Shown here: positions 41,672 through 42,195 of the stretch, piece after piece
How positions within the stretch are numbered: the stretch's first letter is position 1
Layout of the letters: the number at the start of each line of letters is the position of its first letter
Assembly: GCA_023150455.1 (NCBI GenBank)
Contig: JAKLKW010000015.1
Coordinates: 1 to 43,145, forward strand
Length of the DNA stretch: 43,145 bases
From: Alphaproteobacteria bacterium
GTDB taxonomy: Bacteria; Pseudomonadota; Alphaproteobacteria; JAEULC01
Direction: 5' to 3'
Program-made: the position numbers and the translations under genes
The notes under the pieces: model-generated
The model's input: only the letters and a program-made list of their open reading frames with translations
What the model was told of the DNA's origin: nothing
Database searches by the model: none

Positions 41672-42195
41672 ATGAGCGCCTTCGACAGCGACCGGCGTGA
41701 TGCCGGCTACGTCGTCAGCAGCGACCGCGCCCGCATCGATCTCGACGTCGTCCACGGCTTCCTTGCGCGCCAGAGCTATTGGTGCCGCGGCATCCCGCGC
41801 GACGTGGTCGAGCGCGCGGTCGCCAACTCGCTGTGCTGTGCTTCGGCGTGTACGCGTTGTCGGCGCGGGTTGATCCGCGCGCCCCTCCATCCGGTTCGGC
41901 GGCTGGATCGGCGGCCGCCTGTGCGCAGATCGGCTTTGCCCGTGTGGTGACCGATTTCGCCACCTACGGCTACATCGCCGACGTCTTCGTCCTGCCGGAA
42001 TGGCGCGGCCGCGGCTTGTCCAAGCGCCTGATGGAAGCGATCCTCGCGCATCCCGGCCTGCAGGGCTTCCGCCGCCTGACCCTCGCCACGCGCGACGCCC
42101 AGGGGCTTTACGCGCGGTTCGGCTTCACGACTTCGCTGCGGCCGGACTGGCAGATGGAGCGGTTCAATCCGAACGTCTATGGTGACCCGCTATGA
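41672..42195 (+). pseudogene. GNAT acetyltransferase gene broken by a 5-bp duplication and carrying a repeat insertion
   Basis: The first frame encodes ARIDLDVVHGFLARQSYWCRG and ends its homology at VANSLC. The next frame then resumes at CFGVYAL and continues with IGFARVVTDFATYGYIADVFVL, the CoA loop EWRGRGLSKRLMEA and LYARFGFTTSL. The switch comes from a direct duplication of CTGTG at 41831-41840. Just after it, at 41863-41926, a 64-bp palindromic element adds about 21 residues ([20 protein letters not shown]). Without both, a normal ~150-residue GNAT enzyme would result. A start within the second frame could give only a truncated protein, so I call it a pseudogene unless frameshifting or a sequencing error is involved. 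Confidence 0.8.
41863..41926 (-). repeat. Diverged copy of the palindromic repeat, inserted in the GNAT gene
   Basis: Its two ends match the reverse complement of the 57-bp unit at 16995-17108 almost base for base (GATCCGCGCGCCC on one side; TCGGCGGC and GCGGCCGCCTG on the other). The middle ~10 bases differ, with a few extra bases. The stem GGCGGC/GCCGCC is kept. In the downstream GNAT frame it is open. Confidence 0.85.

Follow-up and report, generated by a model that had tools for sequence, protein, structure and literature searches.

According to PMC3733652, the REP dimers, BIMEs and REPINs associated with RAYT, which constitute the GTAG superfamily, include intragenic copies that encode 20-30 residues in several species, and the CGTC superfamily, for which no dedicated transposase is known, includes the Rickettsia elements RPE-4 and RPE-6. 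Rickettsia palindromic elements of the RPE-1 type are described in PMC2229807 as lying in frame in conserved protein genes, with lengths of 105-146 bp and terminal inverted repeats that give long stem-loops; the Caulobacter CIR repeat, according to the same review, was not found intragenically and contains stops in all six frames. A literature search that combined repetitive extragenic palindromic sequences with Rhodospirillales yielded only PMC3733652.

In this work, we analyzed a 43,145-nt stretch (the window) of a draft alphaproteobacterial genome (assembly GCA_023150455.1, contig JAKLKW010000015.1), in which a segment of a GNAT acetyltransferase gene is very probably a copy of a palindromic element of ~57 nt that is mobile, non-autonomous and specific to its lineage, and that is built as an inverted heterodimer of REP-like hairpins. 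The element is present in high copy number and spread genome-wide, its hairpins are conserved through compensatory changes, and within the collection searched it is restricted to its lineage; its sites are empty in congeners, it is amplified locally in tandem, and inside genes it is mostly inserted in frame.

As in the REP/BIME/REPIN group described in PMC3733652, short palindromes are paired in inverted orientation, occur in more than 100 copies, form tandem arrays and stem-different heterodimers, and are located for the most part at 3' ends and in the gaps of convergent or same-strand gene pairs, with occasional intragenic copies; however, the outer tetranucleotide of our element is CTAG or CCAG rather than GTAG, and a RAYT (Y1) gene clearly flanked by it was not found. 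With the CGTC repeats of the same paper it shares alphaproteobacterial hosts, 8-bp stems, frequent heterodimers and in-frame intragenic copies, but it has no CGTC tag next to its stems, and its 6-nt loops and G/C stems differ from the 4-5 nt loops, and from the A/T first pairs of the 8-9 bp stems, given there. Like the Rickettsia elements, it is inserted in frame in protein genes whose relatives do not have the insert, as indicated by empty sites for HisZ and fructosamine kinase and by solved relatives for the SDR, TmpB-like and PhnI proteins; nevertheless, its length of ~57 nt, its two separate hairpins and its Rhodospirillales-like host lineage set it apart from those elements. The Caulobacter CIR, as portrayed in PMC2229807, is likewise an alphaproteobacterial repeat of two sections forming independent stem-loops, and many copies of our element have a GANTC spacer site, yet these copies, unlike CIR, are free of stops in several frames and occur inside genes. 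In-frame intragenic REP dimers have already been published, and the present element shares their organization, location and coding behavior but lacks both the GTAG and the CGTC tags.

Between trpS and murJ, the repeat forms two identical tandem copies with a period of 57 nt (Table 1), and the original prediction held that a reverse-strand copy of it, at 41863-41926, is inserted in the GNAT gene as a segment that has no counterpart in GNAT proteins. A covariance model (R2), constructed from 24 copies of the genome other than that in GNAT, placed the segment at 41862-41919 of the minus strand, which agrees with the predicted span to a few bases. The score was 55.1 bits, corresponding to E-values of 1.4e-10 when the window was searched and 1.9e-8 for the whole genome. 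The match to the trpS-murJ unit comprises both hairpins and both GATC loops, with a spacer two bases longer, and since this score derives from a model of 24 other copies, the resemblance is not attributable to chance. When a hairpin pattern of 22 nt was searched allowing 3 mismatches, 4 matches were obtained, against 0.46 expected.

Table 1. Positions of the repeat copies, the interrupted gene, its neighbors and other features in the window.
Feature	Position	Strand	Description and basis
Interrupted GNAT acetyltransferase gene	41672..42195	+	N-terminal part follows the ORF from 41672, C-terminal part that from 41779; ORFs, Pfam, intact syntenic orthologues L041 and L042
5-bp tandem duplication CTGTG-CTGTG, GNAT frame shift	41831..41840	+	Only in the window genome (G000); absent from both congeners
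Diverged double-hairpin repeat copy, 58 nt	41862..41919	-	cmsearch with model R2, 55.1 bits, E 1.4e-10; also in the genome census
Hairpin A of the GNAT copy, one stem mismatch	41898..41919	-	Pattern match and cmsearch alignment
Hairpin B of the GNAT copy, one stem mismatch	41862..41883	-	cmsearch alignment
Extra codons (20 residues) from the element and adjoining bases	41863..41922	+	ORF translation; absent from G001 and G003 orthologues
Acetyltransf_9 gene, neighbor	41078..41632	+	Pfam; same neighbor in L041 and L042; synteny and constraint control
FkbM methyltransferase gene, neighbor	42179..43138	+	Pfam; same neighbor in L041 and L042; synteny and constraint control
murJ-trpS tandem pair, first copy	17001..17056	+	Repeat search, 100% identical 57-nt period; 79.1 bits
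murJ-trpS tandem pair, second copy	17058..17113	+	Repeat search; 79.1 bits
Cobalamin riboswitch	9557..9749	-	Rfam, 120.6 bits
Long repeats with a 27-nt period	27058..33814		Repeat search

The gene order Acetyltransf_9, GNAT, FkbM is common to two genomes of the same genus, in which the GNAT gene is open and is 70-72% identical to that of the window over the C-terminal part. Between a conserved Y and a conserved Q, the window gene has 24 codons, compared to five in the syntenic genes of the two congeners, and because the segment is missing from both it is an insertion; the finding that all orthologues carry it as ordinary protein sequence, which would have spoken against the prediction, was not obtained. 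The segment was also absent from 11 of 11 named GNAT loci whose translations were read by eye, two of which (L185 and L186, labelled as MAGs of a Rhodospirillales bacterium and of an Alphaproteobacteria bacterium) appear identical with records of the two congeners, and one of which (L193) has an unrelated longer loop. We give practically no credence to the alternative that the segment is an ordinary A/G/S-rich loop resembling the repeat by chance: the genome is rich in G+C and the loop between Y and Q does vary in length, most GNAT orthologues having 4 or 5 residues there and L193 more, but a chance loop is already refuted by the model score, with both hairpins and both GATC loops at the right spacing, and by the empty sites of both syntenic congeners.

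The predicted preservation of the reading frame held for the element and not for the gene. The copy reads without a stop in the same frame as the C-terminal half, whose ORF matches Pfam Acetyltransf_7 and Acetyltransf_1; nevertheless, the N- and C-terminal halves are in different frames because of the 5-bp tandem duplication just upstream of the element, so that the GNAT domain of the window is not in an intact frame. The frame break is therefore caused by this separate duplication and not by the element, which is frame-neutral here. The duplication could be a sequencing or assembly error, the assembly being a draft in 279 contigs. Over the C-terminal piece, dN was 0.20 and 0.23 in the comparisons with the window genome and 0.062 between the two congeners, with dS of 0.59-0.74, and the ratios derived from these values were 0.27-0.37 with the window genome versus 0.106 between congeners; the short N-terminal piece displayed no such dN contrast, and no comparable rise in dN/dS was found, in the comparison with congeners, for the genes neighboring GNAT or for HisZ. 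These rates weakly suggest that constraint on GNAT was relaxed in the window lineage, and the gene is probably decaying, with the insertion of the element having preceded or followed an unrelated 5-bp duplication.

The consensus of the element reads GGCGGCCG-CTGATC-CGGCCGCC for the first hairpin (A), a spacer of GACTCAAATG plus a few bases, and GGCGCGCG-GATCAA-CGCGCGCC for the second (B); two different palindromes are set in inverted orientation with TGATC and GATCA loops. Hairpin B, when reversed, is a variant of hairpin A, and the opposite strand of the element is matched by the model as well; the unit is therefore a heterodimer in inverted arrangement. The stems consist of G/C pairs in the consensus of this species and the loops are 6-nt; across copies, the first loop reads YTGATC and the spacer resembles GACTCAAATG, with a GACTC (GANTC) site in many copies and an inner foot that reads GACT (AGTC reversed). 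In copies from G002 and G003, two genomes of the six-genome search described below, the loops are kept and the stems are changed on both sides together: in an alignment of 16 copies from three species, 99.1% of the pair cells were standard, 4 pairs were changed on both sides, and covariation amounted to 0.168 as opposed to 0.043 in shuffled alignments (0 of 500 shuffles were as high). The combination of constant loops with compensating stems hints that recognition may follow a rule other than the GTAG one known for RAYTs. Among 109 full copies, 46 measured 57 nt, 32 measured 58 nt and 105 fell within 54-60 nt, and at least three open frames were present in 107. A mosaic form of ~70-74 nt was also observed at seven loci of the genome (L160, L164, L167, L168, L169, L172 and L175), in which sequence like TCCTGAGCCTGTCGAAGGGC takes the place of the second arm of hairpin A and itself resembles part of a different repeat family; one of these copies is in frame inside HisZ (L169).

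In the 5.86 Mb genome, at least 147 matches at E<=1e-3 were found among the 150 of 24194 first-look candidates that were scored. At the loci fetched after this census, counting copies with nhmmer scores of 14 bits or more and leaving 19 later loci outside the counts, we recognized 129 copies in 92 arrays, of which 71 were single and 21 were tandem arrays of 2-5 copies. Mean identity was 95.5% within arrays and 80.3% between them, a level reached in 0 of 2000 permutations, and on this basis arrays grow by local duplication. Five contigs of the draft (C92, C246, C263, C264 and C276) start with or within a copy, which suggests that the repeats break its assembly. Single-hairpin pattern searches revealed a few solitary hairpins and, among the matches listed (about 100 places for each hairpin), no gene enclosed by two hairpins as would be expected for an autonomous version.

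Regarding taxonomic spread, the exact pattern of the element had no match in 84,980 species genomes, a set from which records near the window genome may be left out. A search of six genomes gave no match in G001, six in G003 and 24 in G002 (both strands of some places being counted), as well as weak matches in G004 (one) and G036 (two).

When the 87 arrays lying away from contig edges (5 of the 92 were set aside) were assigned to gene contexts by codon bias in their flanks, 29 were between convergent genes, 9 between divergent genes and 49 between or within same-strand genes; several copies supply or directly follow a stop codon. Such a distribution is what would be expected if the repeats were functional RNA or DNA sites, such as terminators or 3'-end stabilizers, spread by selection instead of mobility, an explanation that the position of several arrays right after stop codons would also favor; nonetheless, coding insertions within enzymes (SDR, HisZ and fructosamine kinase) have no such role, and copies are dispersed and similar across unrelated sites, so we judge it very unlikely.

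The claim that insertion of the element into genes does little damage to the frame was borne out at other loci of the genome, where it lies in frame inside at least seven recognizable genes besides GNAT. In fructosamine kinase (L108), ~20 extra in-frame residues are present relative to 3f7w, and the site is empty, with a 57-nt gap, in G001, the only one of three congeners in which the gene was found; for HisZ (L169), all three congeners have an empty site, the gap being 75 nt for an element of ~74 nt. Alignments of the SDR oxidoreductase (L003) to solved relatives break at the segment, and the TmpB/PhnZ-like HD oxygenase (L100) and PhnI (L131) have extra residues relative to theirs. The copy in a PPDK-like protein with a PPDK_N domain (L118) and a shortened copy in an MFS transporter (L163) were assigned from Pfam and ORFs, the PDB search having returned no relatives for either. 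A further protein (L117) with an in-frame copy, no family hit and a run of undetermined residues nearby is counted as an in-frame case only in the frame statistic given below. Three tandem copies in frame (L009, 1388-1556) were also seen to extend the C-terminus of an apparent ABC transporter ATPase, named by eye, by ~57 residues followed by a new stop.

Out-of-frame copies were identified, partly by eye, in MarC (L011) and probably in PhyH (the second copy at L119), where Pfam matched the upstream MarC piece and neither the downstream MarC piece nor the upstream PhyH piece; the element thus appears to break the MarC gene and probably breaks PhyH. The PhyH-like region holds two copies (1627-1683 and 2006-2058) in opposite orientation, one apparently out of frame. 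The element is thus a clear example, from beyond Rickettsia, of a mobile palindromic repeat adding ~20 residues to conserved enzymes without breaking them, beside other genes that it does break.

The frame was kept at the element in 9 of 11 internal insertions (GNAT being counted as frame-neutral) where one third would be expected (binomial 0.0014), a figure that is indicative only, as recognition favors in-frame cases. For HisZ, dN/dS was 0.38-0.41 in comparisons with this genome and 0.35-0.42 among congeners, so that the insert-bearing gene is, as judged from these ratios, under normal constraint like that of its congeners; filled and empty orthologues of HisZ and fructosamine kinase make the cost of an insertion measurable. 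A contrast in age between copies inside genes and the others was not seen, as their scores did not differ (medians 49.4 and 50.5, p 0.79). We propose that, in genes, mostly stop-free and frame-keeping insertions would survive, adding a hydrophilic stretch of ~20 residues in which A, D, P, S, G and R are frequent. A stronger version, in which the element is selected for translatability in the manner of the Rickettsia elements and persists partly through tolerated in-gene insertions beyond mere survivorship, would agree with the open frames of 107 of the 109 full copies, their common lengths of 57 or 58 nt, the frame-keeping excess and the constraint on HisZ. We consider it unlikely, given that genes contain only a minority of the arrays and that two insertions appear to break their genes. 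Moreover, a G+C-rich sequence is expected to have frames free of stops, and the bias towards kept frames is explained by survivorship alone.

Of the two features anticipated from an alignment of GNAT orthologues, the empty site was present in the congeners and the target duplication was not found; neither was a target-site duplication visible at the other insertion sites compared with congeners. The net insert was 57 nt for an element of 57 nt in fructosamine kinase, 75 nt for ~74 nt in HisZ, and, for 58 nt in GNAT, either 57 or 60 nt according to how long the ancestral loop was, the exact junctions of HisZ and GNAT being uncertain owing to a divergence of ~25-30% from the congeners. As the net inserts match the length of the element, a target duplication longer than ~2-3 bp has no room. 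TA was found at the left junction of 15 of 79 arrays and at the right junction of 18 of 80, against a background of ~1%, which would favor a miniature element (MITE) of a DDE transposon of the IS630/Tc1 type, with TA target duplication, over a REP dimer mobilized by a Y1 enzyme. However, TA stood on both sides in 3 of 69 arrays, equal to the expectation for independence, and a TA target-site duplication was accordingly not accepted, TA being enriched on each side and not jointly; furthermore, the outer motif is a symmetric CYAG...CTRG, the net inserts leave no space for longer duplications, and the element consists of two separate hairpins instead of one long terminal repeat, all of which makes a DDE origin distinctly unlikely. 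The outer foot was CTAG or CCAG at 17 of 69 left and 21 of 78 right ends, compared to GTAG at 2 of 69 and 1 of 78, respectively.

We therefore hold to a REP-dimer type mobile element served by a putative trans-acting enzyme. Movement of single-stranded hairpins without target duplication is known for Y1 transposition. For REPs, single-strand movement with TnpAREP is proposed in PMC8266576. By analogy, copies of the element would spread as a single-stranded hairpin unit through transposition of the Y1/HUH (RAYT-like) type acting in trans, which fits the inserts because they are within about one base of the element in length, show no evident duplication and have CYAG outer feet. The genome contains four Y1_Tnp genes of the IS200/REP-associated type (L070, L072, L073 and L074), and the three proteins scanned (L070, L072 and L073) all match NF047646 below its cut-off. 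Near these four genes, only weak matches to the element were found (best 19.4 bits), a weak half-element being located ~430 nt upstream of the match in L072; a RAYT partner flanked by the element, looked for around the four genes, was not found. In G002, no Y1_Tnp gene was found though the element is present. A Y1 step in the movement of the element is possible, even if we lean against it.

More speculatively, and in our opinion rather improbably, the element might represent a third superfamily of REP-type dimers, defined by a CYAG outer foot, invariant TGATC/GATCA loops and fast-changing compensating stems, which would combine repeated in-frame entry into conserved enzymes, as in the Rickettsia elements, with a Rhodospirillales-like lineage, and whose mobilizing enzyme would read the loop and not a GTAG tag.

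Apart from the repeats, the Rfam search gave no match for the element, a cobalamin riboswitch elsewhere in the window being its only match. The window also holds long repeats with a 27-nt period, which read like calcium-binding nonapeptides of the RTX type.
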